Part shown: positions 8,149-63,475 of the stretch, in pieces | How positions within the stretch are numbered: the stretch's first letter is position 1 | Layout of the letters: each line of letters starts with the position of its first letter | Made by a program: the position numbers and the translations under genes | Assembly (NCBI GenBank): GCA_961205875.1 | Contig: OY540810.1 | Coordinates: 15,562,001 to 15,626,000 of the forward strand | Reading direction: 5' to 3' | Source: Sialis fuliginosa | Taxonomy: Eukaryota > Arthropoda > Insecta > Megaloptera > Sialidae | DNA: 64,000 nt | The notes under the pieces: generated by a model | What the model was told of the DNA's origin: nothing | The model's database searches: none | Seen by the model: only the letters and a program-made list of their open reading frames with translations

Positions 8149-8842
8149 CTTTGATTTTTTGTTTCTTTTAAGAACTGACTAAAAATAATAATTTTAGTTT
8201 TTATTTAAAAATAATTTTAATAATATAAATAATCTAATTATTTATGAAAATAAAAACATTTATTATTACAACTGTCAATTAAATAGATGTATAGAAAAAA
8301 TAATATCCGAAACGTGTCAAACTCTTGAAATATTAAATAAGTAAGAAGCCTTTGACAAAACAAAAAAATTAAAGAAATAATAATAATAAAAATAATAAAT
8401 AATAAATAAAATCAAAGAATAGAATTAAAAATATCTTAAATATTAACAAAAACAACAATTAATGTAATGTAGTTTATATTCAATTTTTTAGCAGAAAGTG
8501 TTAATTTATATAATTTCTTCTGTATCATGATGTATACAAAAATTTTGTGCCGACCAGGCAGTTTATTTTCTGATTTTTTACTGTAATTATTTAACTTTAA
8601 ATTTTGTCCTTGATTTTTAACTATTTCAAAGTTTCATGGATGTCAAATATAACTCTGTGGAAATAAAATCGAAGATGAAATCTAAAAAAGCATTCTGGAG
8701 CTGAAACTTCAAGCTTTCGAACTAATTAAAAAAAAATTTTAACCCCATGAACACTAACAAAAATTACAATTTTGTTTTGTTTTCTAACCCATTAACTATA
8801 CAAAAAATTACTGGAAAAACGGAGAAACTGTGGTTTCTAGTC

Positions 8843-9045
8843 ACTTAAACTAAAAATATACACCTTAACCACAATAAAACAATGTCATTCGACACGTGTT
8901 TCGACTTCACAAGAAGTCCTCATCAGGAGCCTAACAGTTCCAGACTAGGTTCCAGTCTGGAACTGTTAGGACTTCTTGTGAAGTCGAAACACGTGTCGAG
9001 TGACATTGTTTTATTGTGGTTATGGTGTATATTTTTAGTTTAAGT
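8843..9045. mobile_element. 203-bp palindrome, retroelement terminal-repeat relic
   Basis: The left half starts ACTTAAACTAAAAATATACACC and the right half ends with its reverse complement. The arms differ mainly by loss of about 10 bp (CTCCTGATGA read on the minus strand) from the right half. The centre is about TAGGTT near 8950. Each half carries TTCGAC.TCAC and ACACGTGT words. Inverted terminal repeats with an embedded hammerhead are characteristic of Penelope-like elements; that assignment is inference. Confidence 0.8.
8881..8940 (-). ncRNA. Hammerhead-ribozyme-like motif
   Basis: On the minus strand the order is core CTGATGA (8920-8926), a six-pair stem II GACTTC/GAAGTC closed by TTGT, core GAAA (8899-8902), a very short stem III from ACACGTGT, then C at the expected cleavage position. 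The bases before CTGATGA (CTC) pair with GA(A/G) after the cleavage site as stem I. The minimal stem III is typical of hammerheads in Penelope-like elements and retrozymes. One G next to the core in stem II appears unpaired, suggesting a 1-nt loss, so activity is uncertain. The other palindrome half lacks the CTGATGA core. Confidence 0.6.
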
Positions 9046-9204
9046 ATACAAAAAATGAATAAAAATTAAAATTGCAAAAATCTACAAAGTAGAGATTCCA
9101 ATTTTTAAAATATATATTTTTGCACCAAAATTCCAGAACTTTGAATATTCTCCATTTTTTTATATATAAGAAATATTTTGATTTCTTTACATTGCATCAT
9201 TTTT

Positions 9205-14729: not shown

Positions 14730-15300
14730 TATGGGGTCATTCCATATAAAATCATCAAGGTGCTGAAGTTGCACCATTTTTAATTTTGATGAAAGTTTAA
14801 TCAGTTGTTATTATACTTATTAGATAGCAGAAACTGTACTTAGAAAAATTTTAATGGCCATAGTTCGGGGGTGGTGACCGTTTTACCCTCTTAAGATATG
14901 AAGATTTCGTCGATTTTCAACGTTTTTTCAACTCGCTATAGCACGCGTTCTAATAAAGCAATTAAAACGAGCTTAATGTCATTTGAAAGACTAAAGAATC
15001 TAGTTTCAATTGATCTAGCACAATTTAAAGTTTAAATATATTTTTTTGTAGATAGAGGCTTTTCAAATTTATTAATAAAATTGGCATTTTTTCTATTTTT
15101 CGAAATTTATTGTGGCTCTAAGGTTAAACTGAGAAAGCTATAATTATGTGTAAGTTATGTTCATTTATAGTACTCAGTACCCACAAAAAATCAGCTTGAT
15201 TGATGCACATCTTTTATTAAAAAAATTTAGTTAAATATCGCAAAAATCACGAAAACACCAAAATCAGCTGTTTTCGAAGCAAAAAAAAGTTATGTGGGGG

Positions 15301-15960
15301 ACGAGATAAAATTTTGATTTTTTTTTTACAAATGCTCTAAATAGTTATCTTTGAAGGCCTTATAGATTCGTTTTGTTATTTTCATTTTTATAGCAACCAG
15401 AATTTTTTTTTAAATTTAAAAAAATACGAAAACTTCAAAAACGGTTATTTTTAAACATAATTCAAAAATATGTTGGGCACGAGATAGAATTCTGAATTTT
15501 TTTTTACAAATGCTCTAAATAGTTATCTTTGAAGGCCTTATAGATTCGTTTTGTTATTTTCATTTTTATAGCAACCAGAATTTATTTTAAAATTTAAAAA
15601 AAAATACGCAAACTTCAAAAACGGTTATTTTTTAAACAATACAAAAATATGTTGGGTACGAGATAGAATTCTGAATTTTTTTTTACAAATGCTCTAAATA
15701 GTTATCTTTGAAGGCCTTATAGATTCGTTTTGTTATTTTCATTTTTATAGCAACCAGAATTTTTTATTTAAATTTAAAAAATACGAAAACTTCTAAAACA
15801 GCTATTTTCTAAACAATACAAAAATATGTTGGGCACGAGATAGAATTCTGAATTTTTTTTTACAAATGCTCTAAATAGTTATCTTTGAAGTCATTATAGA
15901 TTCGTTTTGTTATTTGCATTTTTATAGCAACCAGAATTTTTTTTTAAATTTAAATAAATT
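15301..15960 (+). repeat. Tandem array, about 178-bp unit (left arm)
   Basis: Units are anchored by ACGAGAT at 15301, 15479, 15658 and 15835, i.e. spacings of 178, 179 and 177 bp. Each holds ACAAATGCTCTAAATAG, TATAGATTCG and TAGCAACCAGAAT. The first unit differs most (ACGAGATAAAATTTTG) and merges into the unique outer arm. Confidence 0.9.
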
Positions 15961-16239
15961 ATTATTAATAAATTTATAAAATTAAAATAACTTCAAAAAC
16001 CAATTGAACGTTAAAAAAATTAATTAAGGTATCTGTTAAAAACAACTAGATTTTATTTTTTGCTCCACATAATTTTTTTTATTTTATTTTATTTATTTTT
16101 TTTCGAAAATACATGATTTTAGAGTTTTTACTCTTTTAAGGATTTAAAAAAAGTCTGGTGACTAGAAAAATGAAAATAACAAGAAAAAGCCAATTGGCCT
16201 TTAAAGTTAATTACTTAAAGCAATTATAAAAAAAATTCA

Positions 16240-16795
16240 AAATTCTATGTCGTGCCCAACATATTTTTGTATTGTTTAAAAAATAGCCATTTTTGAAGTT
16301 TTCGTATTTTTTTTTAAATTTTAAAATAAATTCTGGTTGCTATAAAAATGAAAATAACAAAACGAATCTATAAGGCCTTCAAAGATAACTATTTAGAGCA
16401 TTTGTAAAAAAAAATTCAGAATTCTATCTCATGCCCAACATATTTTTGAATTATGTTTAAAAATAACCGTTTTTGAAGTTTTCGTATTTTTTAAATTAAA
16501 CAAAAAAATCTGGTTGCTATAAAAATGAAAATAACAAAACGAATCTATAAGACCTTCAAAGATAACTATTTAGAGCATTTGTAAAAAAAAATTCAGAATT
16601 CTATCTCGTGCCCAACATATTTTTGTATTATGTTTAAAAATATCCGTTTTTGAAGTTTTCGTATTTTTTAAATTTAAAAAAAAATTCTGGTTGCTATAAA
16701 AATGAAAATAACAAAACGAATCTATAAGGCCTTCAAAGATAACTATTTAGAGCATTTGTAAAAAAAAATTCAGAATTTTATCTCGTCCCCCACAT
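16240..16795 (-). repeat. Tandem array, about 178-bp unit (right arm, inverted)
   Basis: The same unit in reverse complement, anchored by ATCTCGTGCCCAAC-like words near 16247, 16426, 16604 and 16780. The spacer 15960-16240 between the two arrays is A/T-rich and only partly related to the unit. Confidence 0.88.
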
Positions 16796-17366
16796 AACTT
16801 TTTTTTGCTTCGAAAACAGCTGATTTTGGTGTTTTCGTGATTTTTGTGATATTTAACTAAATTTTTTCAATAAAAGATGTGTATCAATCAAGCTGATTTT
16901 TTGTGGGTACTGAGTACTATAAATGAACATAATTTACACATAATTATAGCTTTCTCAGTTTAACCTTAGAGCCACAATAAATTTCGAAAAATAGAAAAAA
17001 TGACAATTTTATTAATAAATTTGAAAAGCCTCTATCTACAAAAAAAAATATTTAAACTTTAAATTGTGCTAGATCAATTGAAACTAGATTCTTTAGACTT
17101 TCAAATGACATTAAGCTCGTTTTAATTGCTTTATTAGAACGCGTGCTATAGCGAGTTGAAAAAACGTTGAAAATCGACGAAATCTTCATATCTTAAGAGG
17201 GTAAAACGGTCACCACCCCCGAACTATGGCCATTAAAATTTTTCTAAGTACAGTTTCTGCTATCTAATAAGTATAATAACAACTGATTAAACTTTCATCA
17301 AAATTAAAAATGGTGCAACTTCTATATTTTAATAAATTTGATGATTATAAATGGAATGACTCTATG

Positions 17367-25223: not shown

Positions 25224-25736
25224 AACATCTGCCAAGTGAATGCACAGTGCTTCCTCGTGCTAAATTCATCAAAGAGAGTTAATTATCAAACAATTTTAAT
25301 GTTTGACAATTTTAATCTAAATATAAATTTTTCTGTTATGCAAACGTCAAAATGACATTTAATATGTCCAATTTAAAGAAAATTAAGATTAATTTTTGCA
25401 AGGGAATATTTTACAACAAATGTTGTGGTGACTCCACCTTAAGCGATTTTGATGATTTTGAAATGGGACCATCCTCAAGCCAAACACAACCAACTAACCA
25501 AGTTTCATTAATATCAGTTCAGTGGTTCATGAGTTATGCGTGTGACAAGGATTCAGGGGACAGACAGACAGACACAAACATACACACACACATACAGATA
25601 GACATTGAATGAAAAGTGTTTGTTTTGACCTGAAATGGAAAGATCAAGTTTAAATTTTGAAATCGAAGAACATTTTTTTTTCTCATTTTGGAACGATCAC
25701 AAAGCTTCGCGTATCTTAGATATGGCGAGGAAGCAA
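25224..25736 (+). repeat. Dispersed family D1, copy D (full length, best preserved)
   Basis: Has all sections in order from ACATCTGCCAAGTGAATGC to GGCGAGGAAGCAA, with the TGCTTCCTCG / CGAGGAAGCA inverted words near its two ends. The 86-codon ORF reading the GACAGACAGAC run is not a gene. Confidence 0.82.
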
Positions 25737-31975: not shown

Positions 31976-32932
31976 CTATGTTCCGATATACACTGCGAGC
32001 ACTGTGACTTCTGACGTCACTCAACTTTACTGGATTGTTCGTTCCGTTTTAGATTTTGTACTGAAAACGATGGTGAATTTTCTATAACTGAATACTTTGC
32101 AGTTACTGTAGACCGCCATTTTGAAACTAATGTCAAAATAAAGACCAGATATATTTATACCACTGATCTGATATTATTTAACTGGATAGTGGATACCTAT
32201 GGAATTACTATTAAACCGGATGGCTAAATTTCATACATTTTCTAACAGTATCATTTCCATTTGCGCATGCGCGAGACGCAACACTGAACTCAATTTTGAT
32301 ATGATATAGAGGTATGTGACGTGCTTCTATAGTTTCTTTATTCAATTGTTAATCAGATTTGACAGTTAATATGCATCTATGGTTGTTTATTTAGTTATTA
32401 TTTGATAATTAAAATAAATTACAGGTATTCGCGTGTTAAATAAGTGTATTGTAGTTGATATACAATTGAACTTGTATGTATTTATTTATATATTTAACAA
32501 ATCAATTTGAAAAATTTGAATTTCGAACATCCGTTGACGCATGCGCATAATCAGTTTCGGTTGTTAGGAAATATTCAATTTCAGCCATCATGTCTGACTT
32601 ATCATCAGTCCAGCCATGTCAATGATTTATACCGATGAAGTGGCCAGATTCATAGCATTTCTATGCAGGACATCACTTTTTATATCCTCTGATTATATAA
32701 AGTACAATAATAAATAAATAATTCAAATATTATTTTCAATAATGAAAAAAAATAGCAATTCAAAAAATTTATATTGTTGCGTCAATTTGTTTAATTATAT
32801 TAGTGCATTTCAATTAAGGCTAAATTATTTATTCTTATTTATACTTACTCTTGATTATATGTTCCATAAATGTTATTAATTCATCTTCAAATAACCTGAT
32901 AATAAAAAATACATCTAAAGTTAACCTTAAAT

Positions 32933-43200: not shown

Positions 43201-43687
43201 TCTGTTGCATACAATTTATAAAATCTAATTCCATATTAGCGATTCACGTGTATTTTTATTACAATATTTCAAATATTATATACATCTTTCACCCACTTCT
43301 TAGAAATTAAATTTTGAAATTTCCTTCTTAGTGGGTGGTTACGTCATAAAATGAAGGCACTCATAAAATTTCATGTTTCCTGGTCCAAAGCTAGAATAGT
43401 TCAGCTAAGGGTAGATGGACTTACCGTCTAATCCCAAACATTGAAAACTGGGTTAAAAGGAGTAATGGAGAAGTGGGTTTCTATTTAACTCACAAGGGGA
43501 GATCATATCTAGGGAAGTTGGGATTTTAGTCAGCTTTGGAGAGGTGAATCTAGACCAAAAATAAGGAGACACGTGTTCGAGAACTCATCTGGGCAGCCCT
43601 TATTAGTAAAGATATTAAATTTTGAAAATTGGTATATTTCCTTAAGCTCTTATGTACTGTAATAAGCATCTACGTTAACAATCCTTC

Positions 43688-43755
43688 AATGGCTGTGCGT
43701 GTAGAGCGCCGGCTTATGATCCAAAGAACACAGGTTCGAATCCCGTACCCTGTAC
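43688..43755 (+). other. tRNA-like sequence (SINE head or tRNA pseudogene), left arm
   Basis: A perfect Pol III B box GGTTCGAATCC is at 43733-43743, and an A-box-like TGGCTGTGCGTG lies about 42 bases upstream. A T-arm of five pairs (one mismatch) can form, but I cannot pair an acceptor stem and the anticodon stem is poor. It is followed by a T-rich run. This fits a tRNA-derived SINE head or tRNA pseudogene rather than a functional tRNA. Confidence 0.5.
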
Positions 43756-44458
43756 AAAATAATTTTTATTTTTATTTTCAATTGTTTCTTACTTTTTATT
43801 TTTTTTACATATAGATTACCAGTACCTGCTATTTATACATTATGCTTTTTATGTAAACATATCGATAATACATATATGTTTTTTGGGTTGAAATACACAT
43901 GTAAAGTTTTAAATAGTTTATTTATGATGTTATTTTTATTGAAACTACGTATATAATTTACCAATTAAAAATATATTTCAATTAATCAAATTTATTTGAT
44001 ACCTAAATAAATTATTTTTTACTTTTATTTAATTTTTTTCATTCAAATAAATTATCGGTCTTCTATACTATTGAAAATATTATTTCTATTTTTTTTCCTT
44101 TTTGGCCTTATAATTAAATTATTTACAGCTAGTTATTTGTTTATATTTATATTTCTTTAATTAAATAAAAGAAGTAAGATTTTACGATATTATTATTTTT
44201 ATTTTATAATAAATGATGCACATTTTGGAATATTTAAAAGTTTAACAATTGAAATATATTTTTAATTGGTAAATTATATACGTAGTTTCAATAAAAATAA
44301 TCTATTTAAAACTTTACATGTGTATTTCAACCCAAAAAACATATATTATCGATATGTTTACATAAAAAACATAATGTATAAATAGCAGGTGGTGGTAATC
44401 TATATGTAAAAAAAATAAAAAGTAAGAAACAATTGAAAATAAAAATAAAAATTATTTT

Positions 44459-44525
44459 GTACAGGGTACGGGATTCGAACCTGTGTTCTTTGGATCATAA
44501 GCCGGCGCTCTACACGCACAGCCAT
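44459..44525 (-). other. tRNA-like sequence, right arm copy
   Basis: Reverse-complement copy of the tRNA-like segment in the left arm, with the same perfect B box at 44471-44481 read on the minus strand. The two copies are identical over the translated span, so they face each other as convergent candidate Pol III units across the loop. Confidence 0.5.
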
Positions 44526-44639
44526 TGAAGGATTGTTAACGTAGATGCTTATTACAGTACATAAGAGCTTAAGGAAATATACCAATTTTCAAAATTTAAT
44601 ATCTTTACTGATAAGGGCTGCCCAGATGAGTTCTCGAAC

Positions 44640-45100
44640 ACGTGCCTCCTTATTTTTGGTCTAGATTCACCTCTCCAAAGCTGACTAAAATCCCAACTTC
44701 CCTAGATATGATCTCTCCTTGTCAGTTACTATCAGAGCACGGGTGCTTCAGGGCATATCTTTTAAATTAAATAGGGTTGAATCACACGACTATCTACATT
44801 GCCTGAGGATGAGGAGCATGTATTCCTTAGGTGCCCTCACTTTTATGAGCTCCACATAAGGCTTCAGTTAATACTCCGTGAACCCTTAACCCTGAAGAAC
44901 CTAGTACTGGCGTCTGCGGAAAAATGGGATGCATTAATTCGTTTGCAACGATAGTATTATTAGAACTCCGACAAATATAAAGAGGTAGAACTATTCCCTA
45001 ATATAGTGAGGGAAGGGGACACAATCTTTTCTTTTTCCTGAGGAAGAGCAATGGCTACGACCTCACCGCGAAGTAATGCCTAACGGCGGTTTCGTGGAGA
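44640..45100 (+). pseudogene. R1-like LINE C-terminal relic
   Basis: A plus-strand frame reads QLLSEHGCFRAYL near 44722, then, after a frameshift, LPEDEEHVFLRCPHFYEL near 44800 and EKWDALIRLQR up to a stop near 44951. These match the C-terminal CCHC-like region (GHGCFRAYL, then D..EHVLF.CP) of R1/LOA/I-type LINE ORF2 proteins. Downstream sequence to about 45100 resembles their 3' UTR but is not diagnostic. At least one frameshift and one stop (in ..YLLN*IGLN) disable it. Its 5' end lies inside the right arm of the inverted repeat at 43486-44728. Confidence 0.65.
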
Positions 45101-55406: not shown

Positions 55407-58340
55407 TTAAATTAAATTATCGTTCATAAAATCGTCTAGCGAGTAGTACGATTTGATTTTGAGAATAGATTTTAATTTATTTTTAAATTGGGTGAAAGGT
55501 AATATTTTTATGTAACTAGGTAATTTATTATATATATTTATTATTGAGTTTAACGGTCCTTTTTGAATTACAGTGAGTGTATGTTGTGTTATAATTAGGT
55601 CGGATTTGTTTCGTGTGTTATAATTGTGTGTTAATTTATTTTCTGTAAAGATTTGAGGATGTTTTTTATAAAAAAGTGCACATTCTAAAATATAAATATC
55701 AATAATAGTTAGGATGTTTAGCTCTTTAAAGAGTGGTCTACAAGATGTTCTTGGTTCAACATTTAAAATTACTCTTATACATTTTTTTTGAAATATTAAA
55801 ATTTTGTTTATATTTATAGAGTTTCCCCATAGGATAATTCCATATCTCATATGTGATTCGATTATACCAAAATAAATGTTTAGTAAAATTGTTAATGGGA
55901 CTAGTTTATATAAGATTCTCAGTGTATAAATATATTTATTTGTTTTGTTAATAATGAAGTCAGTATGTTTTTTCCAATTTAAGGATTTATCTATATTTAT
56001 TCCCAAGAATTTTATTTCATCCTCTAATTTTATATTTCCAATATTTTGGATGTTTATATTATCTAATATATCCCCGTAGTTTCCAAATTTTATAAATTTA
56101 GTTTTTTCAATATTTAGTTTTAAGCTGTTGCTAGAAAACCAGTTTAATATTTTGCTTAATGAATCACTGAAGTTATTTATTAATAATTTACTGGATGGTT
56201 CTGTAAATAAAATTGCAGTGTCGTCCGCAAATAATGTAAATTTGTCGTTTGTTATGTTAGGTAGATCATTTATATACAATAGAAATAGGATCGGGCCCAG
56301 AATTGATCCCTGGGGTACTCCTCTAATTATTTCTTTAGTGTCGGATAGTATATGTAATTGAGTATTATTTTCAGTACTAATCAGTTGAACTTTTTGAGAC
56401 CTATTGGTTAAGTAGGATTTTATTAAATTAAGTGCTGTTCCTCTGAAACCGTATTCGTATAATTTAGAACATAATAAATCGATATGTACACAGTCAAAGG
56501 CCTTTGTGAGATCTAGGAAAACTCCTAAATTTGAGTATTTTTTGTTCCATATTTCCAAAATATAATTTATCATGTTGAAAACAGCAAGGTTAGTGGAGAG
56601 ACCACGTCTAAATCCATATTGACAATCTGTTATAATACAATATTTGAGTAAGTAGTCATTTATTCTATTTACAATAATTTTTTCAAACAATTTGGATATG
56701 TTAGATAACAATGATATGGGACGATAATTTTCGAAGGAATTGATATCTCCTTTTTTGTGTAGTGGTTTAATTATTGCTAACTTTAATTTATCCGGAAAAA
56801 CTCCTTGTAGCATACAATTATTGATGATGAAAGTAAGAGGTTCGGCTATTAAATGAATACAGTTTTTTAAAATGTGAGTGGGTATAGAATCCCATCCTAC
56901 AGATTTTTTATTTTTCATAGAGTAGCATACTTTTATTATTTCGGATTTATCACAGGGGTAAAAAAACATACTATCATAATTTTTTGTAAGATTGAAATTG
57001 TAATCTAGAAGTGGTTGGTCAAGATTTAGATGATTAGAAATATTAATAAAAAAATTGTTAAAATCATTTGCAGTATCGACATTATAGTTTTCAGTTTTTT
57101 TATCTAACGAGTGTCCGACCTTTGAAGTATTATTTAGATTGTTTATTATGTTCCAAACTGATTTCGATTTATTTTCAGAGTTAATGAGAATATTACTGTA
57201 ATAATTGCTCTTTGCAATTTTAACTTTTGTCGATACTTCTTTACATATATTTTTGTATTTTAAAGTAAGATTCTTACAATTTAAACCATTTGTTTTAAAA
57301 TCTCGCAACATAATAAAAAGATCATATTTATATTTACAAAGTGATTTAATTTCTGGTGTAAGCCAAGTTTTATCGGTTTTATTTGATGTATTTTTTATAA
57401 TATTAATTCGTTTAATCGGAAAAATTAAGTTAAAATAGAAAGAAAAAATATCGTAGAAGTGATTATAACATTCGTTAGCGTCTATAGTATTGAAAATTAA
57501 GTCCCAATTTTCATTTGAAAGTAGGTAATTAAAGAGTATAATTTCGTCTTCGTTATATGTTCGTATATATTTAAATAATTTATTGTTTTTAATAGGGTTA
57601 CTTTCGGTGAATACATTTAAACTTATGGCCATATGATCTGATAACGGTGATAAGATATTTATAGTTTCGTGAGAATTGTTAGAATTTGTTATTATATTAT
57701 CAATGCAAGTTGATGACTTGTATGATATTCTAGTCGGTTCTTTGACTAAACATGTTGTGTTATAAGACGATAATAACAAATTAAGTCTAGTGTATTTATC
57801 AGAGTTTACTAAAATGTTCACGTTTAAATCGCAACAAATGTAATAGTTAATTTTGTATTTTGTGATTTTATATAAGAGCTCATCCAATTTATTGATGAAT
57901 AAATTAAAATCCCCCTCTGGTGATCTATATAACGATACTATAATTAATTTTACATGTTTACATAAGATTGCACAACACTCAAAATCTTTATCTATACTCA
58001 GATTTACCAGTTCGATTAGTTCTTTAAATAAAATTTCTCTTTTTGTAAATATAGCTACCCCGCCATGAATGTAATTTTTCCTAGAATAGAAAGATGCTAG
58101 TTTATAATTTTGGAAGAAATTTACACAAATTTCTGATGAATTACACCAATGTTCACAGATGCACACCACTTCAAAATCGTTTTTTTCTATAAATACTTCC
58201 ACTTCTCCAATTTTGTTTTTTAGGCACTGGATGTTGAAGTGCAGTAATTTTAATATTTTATTTTTGTTGGTATCATTTGTATAATTGTTTGATGGCACAT
58301 GTTGCTTATTTTGCTTGGTCGATTCTATATTTAAATTCAT
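55407..58340 (-). CDS. LINE ORF2: endonuclease/reverse transcriptase, intact
   Basis: A 977-residue polyprotein that would nick target DNA and copy the element RNA by target-primed reverse transcription. Residues about 30-245 are an APE-type endonuclease: N36 in FNIQ, E63 in CEHW, YRSP at 138-141, D171 and N173 in CDLNVN, D214-N215, and SDH at 234-236. Residues about 515-800 are the reverse transcriptase: the NYRPISLLS block near 538, FLDLTKAFD near 608, GVPQGSILGP from 674 and the catalytic FADD at 704-707. No RNase H domain is evident. The C-terminal part has YNTRNK, typical of jockey/CR1-like insect LINEs. There is no frameshift or stop, and the length is normal for the class. The start codon overlaps the ORF1 stop (ATGA), so translation probably depends on termination-reinitiation. 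The exact clade (CR1, Daphne or jockey) is inference. That this is an EN-RT protein is near certain. Confidence 0.95.
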   Translation of the reverse strand: MNLNIESTKQNKQHVPSNNYTNDTNKNKILKLLHFNIQCLKNKIGEVEVFIEKNDFEVVCICEHWCNSSEICVNFFQNYKLASFYSRKNYIHGGVAIFTKREILFKELIELVNLSIDKDFECCAILCKHVKLIIVSLYRSPEGDFNLFINKLDELLYKITKYKINYYICCDLNVNILVNSDKYTRLNLLLSSYNTTCLVKEPTRISYKSSTCIDNIITNSNNSHETINILSPLSDHMAISLNVFTESNPIKNNKLFKYIRTYNEDEIILFNYLLSNENWDLIFNTIDANECYNHFYDIFSFYFNLIFPIKRINIIKNTSNKTDKTWLTPEIKSLCKYKYDLFIMLRDFKTNGLNCKNLTLKYKNICKEVSTKVKIAKSNYYSNILINSENKSKSVWNIINNLNNTSKVGHSLDKKTENYNVDTANDFNNFFINISNHLNLDQPLLDYNFNLTKNYDSMFFYPCDKSEIIKVCYSMKNKKSVGWDSIPTHILKNCIHLIAEPLTFIINNCMLQGVFPDKLKLAIIKPLHKKGDINSFENYRPISLLSNISKLFEKIIVNRINDYLLKYCIITDCQYGFRRGLSTNLAVFNMINYILEIWNKKYSNLGVFLDLTKAFDCVHIDLLCSKLYEYGFRGTALNLIKSYLTNRSQKVQLISTENNTQLHILSDTKEIIRGVPQGSILGPILFLLYINDLPNITNDKFTLFADDTAILFTEPSSKLLINNFSDSLSKILNWFSSNSLKLNIEKTKFIKFGNYGDILDNINIQNIGNIKLEDEIKFLGINIDKSLNWKKHTDFIINKTNKYIYTLRILYKLVPLTILLNIYFGIIESHMRYGIILWGNSININKILIFQKKCIRVILNVEPRTSCRPLFKELNILTIIDIYILECALFYKKHPQIFTENKLTHNYNTRNKSDLIITQHTLTVIQKGPLNSIINIYNKLPSYIKILPFTQFKNKLKSILKIKSYYSLDDFMNDNLI

Positions 58341-59116
58341 TTTTCTAAAAAAATATTTTTATTTTCCTTTGGAAAATTAAATCTGTCAATGACGGTACCA
58401 TCTGGCCAGAATTCAGGATCGTATACTTTGTCCTTGAAACTGAAAGGTACACCAATCATAAATGAACTGTAGTATATGCTTCTGGAGTTTATTTTCTTAC
58501 AGATGCATTCTTCGGTTTCTAATTTTCTCTTTATGAAGTTAATTACTGCCTCCTCCTTAGTATCTGTCCCTTGAATACGCCCGACATAGAGCCAAGCTTT
58601 TTTAGGTACCGCTGTAAGGTCGTTGTCAGAATTTTTATTTGTACCAAATATTCTGGGTTTTCTTTGTTGATTGTATCTTGGTAATGTTTGGTCTGAGGTT
58701 GTCGTGTTGTTATTTATTTGATGTTTTTGTTTGGTGACCACTGGAGTATTTTTTGCAATACTTGCGTATGTTATTGTTTCATCCTTTTTCTCTGTATTTG
58801 CTGTTATAATAGGTTTATCTTTTTCTATATTTTTAACTTCATTGTTTGCACTGTATGTGTCGTTTGTTTTCTTGATATTTATCTTTTTTTCAGTGTTTTT
58901 TGGTATTTCAATACTTTTCGATTTTTTTAACTCGTTAACTAGTAACTCGTTTGTATTTTTTAAGTTTATTATTTCGGTTTTTAAGTTCAAAACTTCATTT
59001 TTTAATTCACATATAACTGTGTTTACATTTTCACAAATTATTTTAGTAAATTCACTAGAATTACAAAATTCTTTAACTGCTGCGATAGTGTTTTCTATTG
59101 TTCTGGTAGTACTCAT
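58337..59116 (-). CDS. LINE ORF1: RNA-binding-type protein
   Basis: A 259-residue protein directly upstream of ORF2. Its role by analogy is packaging element RNA into a ribonucleoprotein. Residues about 32-66 are a heptad-like, Leu/Ile/Asn-rich coiled coil. Residues about 70-170 are Lys/Asn/Thr-rich and look disordered. Residues about 173-259 form a compact domain with AWLYVGRIQGT near 174 and FWPDGTVIDRFNF near 237. This layout recurs in ORF1 proteins of CR1/jockey-like arthropod LINEs that lack zinc knuckles; I see no CCHC motif. The ATG at 59116 sits in an AAAATG context and is the first in frame. The stop shares the ATGA overlap with ORF2. The position beside an intact ORF2 makes the call strong; the biochemical role is inferred from family knowledge. 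Confidence 0.85.
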   Translation of the reverse strand: MSTTRTIENTIAAVKEFCNSSEFTKIICENVNTVICELKNEVLNLKTEIINLKNTNELLVNELKKSKSIEIPKNTEKKINIKKTNDTYSANNEVKNIEKDKPIITANTEKKDETITYASIAKNTPVVTKQKHQINNNTTTSDQTLPRYNQQRKPRIFGTNKNSDNDLTAVPKKAWLYVGRIQGTDTKEEAVINFIKRKLETEECICKKINSRSIYYSSFMIGVPFSFKDKVYDPEFWPDGTVIDRFNFPKENKNIFLEK

Positions 59117-59300
59117 TTTAAAATATTAGTGAGAGCCAATATATAACAATATATAACACGACCGTGCGCTTCAAGCGCTGAACATATGATGTATGTATGT
59201 ATAATTTAGGGTGGGGTAATCTTCCAACCGACCTCGGCTACCCTTCTACTTGAGAGTACTCTTAATTCTAAGAAAAAACGCCCATGAAACTATACCTCTA
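59117..59300 (-). promoter_or_regulatory. Probable LINE 5' leader / internal promoter region
   Basis: The region lies between the ORF1 start and the neighbouring TA-flanked element. Read on the minus strand it holds a short direct repeat TTATATATTG and a self-complementary AGCGCTT word. LINEs of this type carry internal promoters in the leader, but I see no clear initiator or downstream element, so promoter function is inference. Confidence 0.35.
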
Positions 59301-62268: not shown

Positions 62269-62565
62269 TTGCTTCCTTGCAATATCAAAGAGCTTTGTGA
62301 TCGTTTTAGAATGAGACAAAAAAAGTGTTCTCTGATTTTAAAATTTTAAATTGATCTTCCCGTTTCAGGTCAATACAAACACTTTTCCTTCCGTGTCTGT
62401 CTGTCTGTATGTGTGTCAATTCCCTGAATCCATACCACACACATGACTCATGAATCACTGAACCGATATTAATGGAACTTGATTGCATGGTTGGGTCTGG
62501 CTTGAGGACAGTCCCATTTCAAAATCATCAAAATCGTGTATAAGGGGGAGGGGGTGACAAGTGCG
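62269..62565 (-). repeat. Dispersed family D1, copy I (3' part)
   Basis: Minus-strand copy from TTGCTTCCTTGCAATATC through CTGTCTGTCTGTATG to CGTGTATAAGGGGGAGG, cut off near the element at 62584. ORFs across it are not genes. Confidence 0.75.
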
Positions 62566-62583
62566 TGTTGCGCACGCACATGA

Positions 62584-63475
62584 TAGGGTTCCGTAGCCAT
62601 TCTTTACTTGGTAAAACGTATCAAGAGCTATTTCATGTTGACGAAAGATGTAATCTCTATAAAAGTGTTCGTATGACGATTTATAAACAAAATTTTGTGC
62701 ACTTTTCAATCTTATGAAGAGGGGTCTAAATAAATTTCTAGTATTTTTTTACTGAAAGTACTTTTAATTAAAAGCTATACTCTGGGATTATTTCACGGAC
62801 CGAAACTATAATGGTTCCTTGTTTTCTACGGAACTTTAAAAACACTAATTATGTACTAATTTCTAATTAATCAGGATATATAATATAGTTTCTATAGTTC
62901 TTTCCATTTTAAAACGAAATTTCATATAAGTAAATAAGTATCCTAATAAATTATTAAATAGGAGCCTACTTACACCTTATATGACCATTATATCATAAAA
63001 CACATAAAGATAAAATATAATTTATTATAAACTCACTGTTAATAATAATAAAAGCAGTGTATATACGGGTGCACTTTTACGACTCGGTGCATGTACGTAA
63101 CTTTCTCTGGGATATAAACCGTTGTAAAGATATTAGAAGAGGATTGGATTTTCAATAACAAAACAAGTTGTTATTTGTACAAGGAATTCTATGAAAGACT
63201 CGAGAAAGGAAAATCCCCTCCTTGGAAAATAGGTGACAAAATAAACAGAGAAGAATTTTAATGTAATTTAAAGATATAGAGAATAGAGAAGGTTAGACAA
63301 AATAATAGAGAGCTTTTGACATTCTAATATAATTATTACAGAATATATTTAACAATATATCGAAAATTTTATGTTAAACAGTTGTTTTTTGTAGCTCAAG
63401 TTCTTAAAATATTTTTGATGGTATTCTTTAGAAATATTTTAAAATGATTCATAAGTATATAAATACGGAACCCTA
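62584..63475. mobile_element. Element with TAGGGTTCCGTA ends
   Basis: TAGGGTTCCGTA at 62584-62595 and TACGGAACCCTA at 63464-63475 are perfect inverted ends. A phrase near 62797-62836 (complement of CCGTAGAAAACAAGGAACC.TTATAGTTTCG) also occurs near 4420. This GGGTTCCGTAG phrase is common in insect repeats. The interior is A/T-rich without coding sequence. Confidence 0.5.

Follow-up and report, generated by a model that had tools for sequence, protein, structure and literature searches.

The locus at positions 8843-9045 of the window (the whole stretch of Sialis fuliginosa DNA analysed here, 64,000 nucleotides long) raises the question of what kind of element leaves a near-perfect palindrome with the ordered parts of a hammerhead ribozyme in one of its halves. 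We consider it likely that a Penelope-like retroelement (PLE) gave rise to the locus, as a short insertion without coding sequence that is made of two head-to-head pseudo-LTRs (pLTRs) with a decayed minimal hammerhead.

Structure of the palindrome

The palindrome reported in the initial annotation is real. It spans 8843-9045 and is imperfect: the outer arms (8843-8920 and 8968-9045) are 78 nt long and 97% complementary, with two base differences, and the inner arms (8930-8946 and 8954-8970) are 17 nt long and 100% complementary. The inner arms form a head-to-head junction (8930-8970), in which a 17-bp palindrome surrounds a 7-nt spacer, and at the centre of the palindrome GTTCCAGACT at 8937-8946 recurs as GTTCCAGTCT at 8949-8958. 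Alignment of the arms shows that the right arm lacks 12 bp present in the left arm. The loss lies at the 8970/8971 junction, is bounded by AGG microhomology and includes the whole of CTGATGA; the absence of this string from the opposite half had been recognized before, and the size of the loss, given then as about 10 bp, is corrected to 12 bp. From the arms 8843-8920 and 8930-8946, we delimited a direct pLTR-like arm with the hammerhead-like motif (8843-8953, minus strand, with an approximate central limit), and from the inverted-repeat alignment an inverted pLTR-like arm that carries the deletion (8954-9045, plus strand). For each of the two strands, the fold of the complete palindrome has an energy of about -148 kcal/mol.

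The window is A+T-rich (GC of 26-32% in 4-kb steps) and contains 185 pairs of inverted repeats (at least 25 nt, within 2 kb), of which many are satellite pairs that overlap. Since inverted repeats are common in the window, the palindrome by itself is not special. A large inverted repeat lies at 14748-17339, with 707-nt arms (95%); each half contains a 177-bp unit repeated about four times in tandem (at 15242-15959 and at 16146-16796). Another, possibly a transposon, lies at 43486-44728; its arms are 395 nt long (97%), and a further pair is nested inside it at 43930-44300.

A flanking repeat and a one-sided extension

The 12-bp direct repeat TATACAAAAAAT flanks the locus, and we read it as a target-site duplication (TSD). 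Its left copy (8797-8808) is identical to its right copy (9045-9056), whose first base is the last base of the palindrome, and the repeat is A-rich and AT-rich. Between the left copy and the palindrome lies a 34-nt extension (8809-8842, minus strand), which is outside the palindrome, inside the duplication and without a right-hand counterpart; we read it as a PLE tail. The insert between the duplications measures 236 bp, with one repeat base counted as shared. A match of at least 12 bp in the same geometry was found in a fraction of 1.8e-4 of 198,778 random flank pairs from the window (what remained of 200,000 draws once pairs lying too close were removed) and of 5e-4 of local pairs. For comparison, the best equivalent flanking match was 5 bp around seven other inverted repeats of the window, which were hand-picked from 25 listed and include one that lies within another. 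The extension can form a 6-bp hairpin with the loop CACA (z of -1.69, equally stable in 15 of 200 shuffles). This hairpin was dropped as independent evidence because a perfect hairpin of 6 bp is also present in 7% of random 34-mers from the window (1433 of 20,000).

A minimal type I hammerhead-like motif in the left arm

From the order of its parts and a match to RF00163 at 8889-8928, we delimited a hammerhead-like motif of minimal type I form at 8887-8930 of the minus strand. In the left arm, CTGATGA (8926-8920) is followed by a stem II of six pairs (8918-8913 with 8908-8903) closed by the loop TTGT (UUGU in RNA), by GAAA (8902-8899), by the self-complementary ACACGUGU / ACACGTGT (8899-8892) and by C17 at 8891 within a GTC triplet, with the predicted cut after 8891. 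The type I core (CUGANGA, GAAA and NUH with A15.1-U16.1) is thus completely present, together with one extra, unpaired G at 8919 between CTGATGA and stem II. The stem I strands (8927-8930 and 8887-8890) form C-G, U-A and G-U pairs, and their third position is a C-A mismatch (8929/8888). The order read in the initial annotation (CTGATGA, six-pair stem II, GAAA, ACACGTGT, GTC) therefore stands, with the extra G and the stem I mismatch as corrections. Because the other arm has a G at 9000, the equivalent of the mismatch position, the third stem I pair may once have been intact, before the arms diverged.

A covariance model had been proposed as a check, and the Rfam Hammerhead_1 model (RF00163) did return the motif, with 14.7 bits over 8889-8928, below its gathering score of 34. 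The E value was 0.23 for all 4227 Rfam families over 56 bases; rescaled to Hammerhead_1 alone over 64 kb, about 0.06 such matches are expected. No match in the whole window reached an Rfam gathering score. The stem III of the RF00163 consensus has four pairs and is loopless, like that of the motif here. Minimal type I hammerheads of PLE pLTRs are reportedly the subject of work by Cervera and de la Pena (2014) and Lunse et al. (2017).

The frequency of such strings was estimated with patterns of different stringency. A loose hammerhead pattern has an expectation of 0.21 per window and was present in 20 of 100 shuffles, and a loose descriptor occurred 0.023 times per window in 300 simulated windows. 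A strict descriptor (stem II of at least six pairs, stem III of four pairs, stem I of at least two pairs) occurred once in 300 simulated 64-kb first-order Markov windows, or 0.003 times per window, an optimistic figure since the descriptor was devised after the site had been seen. A second, looser hammerhead-like string lies at 32608 on the minus strand, with a stem II of five pairs and two extra core bases (0.02 expected per window).

The motif is probably a relic

We next consider whether the motif could cut. The copy at hand is probably a relic that does not cleave, and an active ribozyme at 8887-8930 is unlikely, as judged from the extra G, the stem I mismatch, an unfavoured monomer fold, the fold of the palindrome and an inverted partner without a core. 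For a 52-nt monomer, the hammerhead fold has -1.7 kcal/mol compared to -10.9 kcal/mol for the best fold, in a model without tertiary or core contacts, and the surrounding palindrome, at the energy given above, would be predicted to engulf the motif. PLE-type double hammerheads require a tandem partner, according to the available part of PMC6466107; here the partner arm is inverted and has lost its own core. In the RNAcofold minimum for two copies of the motif, the 8-bp ACACGUGU helix forms, part of the core pairs elsewhere and stem I is absent. The pairing of two copies through this helix is a point in favour of cutting, though stem I does not form. Also on this side, one study is said to have a title that refers to an extra nucleotide in a viroid core. 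Core changes and insertions are likewise known from natural hammerheads, of which some are active and others have low activity, as far as the accessible text of PMC3088659 goes.

Comparison with Penelope-like elements

The PLE reading is favoured because the 12-bp flanking repeat and the one-sided 34-nt tail match the published layout of these elements. In the available passages of PMC3846280, PLEs have inverted pLTRs, an optional 31-bp tail at the 3′ end of one pLTR and a TSD of 9 or 10 bp; some copies have no TSD, the inverted pLTR is shortened, and head-to-head is the commonest inverted arrangement. According to the same passages, inverted junctions and the 5′ ends of pLTRs hold palindromes, for which the authors propose an origin by self-priming on antisense templates. 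In minus-strand order, the locus here consists of a TSD, an inverted pLTR with the 12-bp deletion, a junction palindrome, a direct pLTR with the motif, the 34-nt tail and a TSD. The pLTRs of PLEs, which can be direct or inverted, would correspond to the arms 8843-8946 and 8954-9045, the PLE origin of which we infer; the optional tail of 30-40 bp that PLEs have at the 3′ end of one pLTR corresponds to 8809-8842 in length and place only, and the repeat copies at 8797-8808 and 9045-9056 are placed, as a TSD (usual in PLEs, though not constant) should be, outside the tail and the pLTR. The initial annotation had read the locus as perhaps the terminal repeats of a PLE or a retrozyme, collapsed into a pair; the flanking repeat and the one-sided tail, neither of which figures in that annotation, support the PLE, and the head-to-head arrangement and the minimal motif speak against the retrozyme.

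Adineta vaga Pen2a and other inverted-pLTR PLEs, as presented in those parts of PMC3846280, resemble the locus in their head-to-head pLTRs, shorter inverted arm and junction palindrome. Their one-sided tail is 31 bp compared to 34 here, their TSD is 9-10 bp compared to 12, and their pLTR is 193-218 bp compared to about 110-128 bp. No ORF was seen in the insert, and its 236 bp fall far short of the PLE copies in print. The hammerheads of PLEs belong to the minimal type I class and are located in pLTRs, as stated in the available portions of PMC6155905 and PMC7761336. As described there and in the available part of PMC6466107, they share with the motif here the type I order, the minimal palindromic stem III and the position in a pLTR-like repeat, and the motif here differs in the extra G after CTGATGA, the stem I C-A mismatch and the lack of a tandem partner in cis.

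In the available text of PMC11167929, Poseidon of Anolis carolinensis (PAc) is described as an active PLE that cuts the two strands of AT-rich targets and extends both; it has two adjacent reverse-transcription starts, the sequence between which is the tail. Two starts bounding a tail, an AT-rich target and a tail stem-loop are features in common with the reading proposed here. Reverse transcription in PAc begins most often 111-118 nt inside the ORF, and its hammerhead cuts at 26 nt, which by subtraction gives 85-92 nt from ribozyme cut to start. At the locus here, the tail ends lie 82 nt (outer end, 8809) and 48 nt (inner end) from the cut after 8891. By analogy, the 82-nt spacing would be similar to that of PAc, and would favour the PLE reading, only on condition that the start at 111-118 nt in PMC11167929 is the outer of the two. 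In contrast to PAc, whose tail and cut site are inside the ORF, the equivalent stretch here is non-coding.

Other explanations for the locus

A different possibility is that the locus is a foldback or MITE-type DNA transposon, with long terminal inverted repeats that hold a hammerhead-like string by chance and with TTAA as a possible piggyBac-type target site. The abundance of inverted repeats in the window fits with this, and TTAA is found 2 nt inside each palindrome end (8845-8848 and 9040-9043); however, TTAA is self-complementary and so is automatically present at both ends of a palindrome, which led us to reject a piggyBac MITE on the basis of its TTAA ends. A transposon of this type should also have a duplication against both palindrome ends, and none abuts both 8843 and 9045, while the one-sided 34-nt extension inside the 12-bp repeat and the ordered hammerhead would be left unexplained. 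We therefore regard such a transposon as unlikely. A non-LTR retrozyme or hammerhead satellite, mobilised via a small circular RNA and rearranged into an inverted pair, would account for the type I hammerhead order. In the parts of PMC7229834 available, metazoan non-LTR retrozymes carry type I motifs and have RNAs of about 170-400 nt, so that the hammerhead type and the small size are shared with the locus; the animal members described there are arranged in tandem and have canonical type I motifs, whereas the arrangement here is head-to-head and stem III is minimal. Since, in addition, a tail with a flanking duplication is present here and no tandem copy of the unit exists within the window, a retrozyme origin is very unlikely.

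A further possibility is a hairpin-RNA or microRNA-type locus, in which the palindrome would be a source of double-stranded RNA. The stability of the palindrome on either strand is in keeping with such a locus, and in a 301-base search the top-scoring Rfam families were microRNA models, with mir-76 first (37.5 bits, E of 1.2e-06), along with mir-3198 (E of 0.011) and MIR8007 (E of 0.028). These matches are far under the gathering scores (75 for mir-76, 91 for mir-3198 and 195 for MIR8007), and the scores are presumably due to the near-perfect palindrome; a microRNA precursor was rejected since mir-76 is at half its gathering score despite its E value. The flanking repeat, the tail and the hammerhead order would again have no explanation, and we give this possibility very little weight. 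The same applies to a chance hammerhead-like string inside an ordinary palindrome. The sub-threshold Rfam score, the extra core G, the expectation for the loose pattern and the second loose descriptor match at 32608 would be in line with chance, while the rarity of the strict descriptor and the coincidence of the motif with the duplication and the tail make it highly improbable.

Relatives and coding content

The points that count against the PLE reading are the sub-threshold Rfam score, the A-richness of the flanking repeat, the small size of the insert and the following results on relatives and PLE proteins. Within the window, there is no second copy of the unit. Relatives were found neither by pattern scan in genome_contigs and viral_contigs nor by blastn of phages and plasmids, an absence that says little, as these collections consist of bacteria, archaea, viruses and plasmids. 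The minimal-motif scans returned three stretches in genome_contigs and two in viral_contigs. All five were rejected as relatives, since they lie in open frames of 295 to 439 aa and have at most three contiguous stem II pairs; two of these stretches (L004 and L005) are identical over the 450 bases compared. Among the phage blastn matches listed (the best 5 of 10 records), the E value was 3, and among the plasmid matches listed (the best 5 of 7 records), the best E value was 0.8; none of these matches covers 80% of the query.

PLEs have a telomerase-like reverse transcriptase (RT), which in canonical members is accompanied by GIY-YIG. No PLE RT or GIY-YIG was identified among the six reading frames of the window compared with Pfam, out of 226 of at least 45 aa that remained after complexity filtering (347 before the filter). 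A non-autonomous PLE copy need not encode an RT. A reading frame through the minus strand at 8791-8970 was rejected, since all three frames contain stops. Elsewhere in the window, the minus strand at 55410-59125 has two adjacent reading frames of 983 and 262 aa, the larger of which (55410-58358) contains RVT_1 (E of 8e-35); from its upstream region, we take it to be a LINE-type retroelement. The reading-frame pieces at 25316-25609 (plus strand) and 62458-62748 (minus strand), neither with a Pfam match, have in common the peptide DFDDFEMG.SSSQTQP.NQV.LISVQ, which suggests a dispersed repeat.

Proposed insertion route

The arms, the flanking repeat, the extension and the motif can be read directly from the sequence, whereas the PLE identity, the action of enzymes in trans, the double priming and the order of events are inferred. 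If the locus derives from a PLE, this order might be as follows. PLE enzymes acting in trans would have cut both strands of an AT-rich site. One strand would have been extended from the outer start, so that the tail was kept and the end lies at 8809, and the other from the inner start, with no tail and the end at 9045. The two copies, primed in this way from both strands, would then have been linked in head-to-head orientation where their pLTRs begin with a palindrome; the central GTTCCAGACT / GTTCCAGTCT repeat would fit a template switch. Alternatively, a single self-primed snap-back copy could have given the same structure, in which case the stop at the inner site would be by chance. By either route, no protein-coding part would have been retained. 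The 12-bp deletion at the AGG microhomology would have removed the core of one arm, either during insertion or later. In an intact tandem PLE, the ribozyme would be expected to cut transcripts as a double hammerhead.

The locus could also belong to a self-standing family of palindromic miniature PLEs with head-to-head pLTRs and, once, a hammerhead on each strand. Such a family would be mobilised in trans with no need for internal sequence, both outer ends would be reverse-transcription starts, and insertion would be double-primed, with each cut strand extended from its own start. We think this quite unlikely.

Significance

Minimal hammerheads in the pLTRs of PLEs are already known, with thousands dispersed in animal genomes, as reported in the available part of PMC7761336, and inverted-pLTR insertions with a tail and a TSD are already in print, as seen in that of PMC3846280. 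The locus is thus a new copy of an already known pattern and most likely a small, damaged derivative of a PLE, which looks like genomic debris of an ordinary and familiar type. For the role of the PLE hammerhead, intact copies would be needed to tell. Insert ends that match the two start sites would favour priming from both cut strands, a step left open in the accessible text of PMC11167929. If the PLE reading is true, the locus would be a compact example of PLE insertion, with tail, duplication, head-to-head pLTR junction and ribozyme site all contained within 260 bp.
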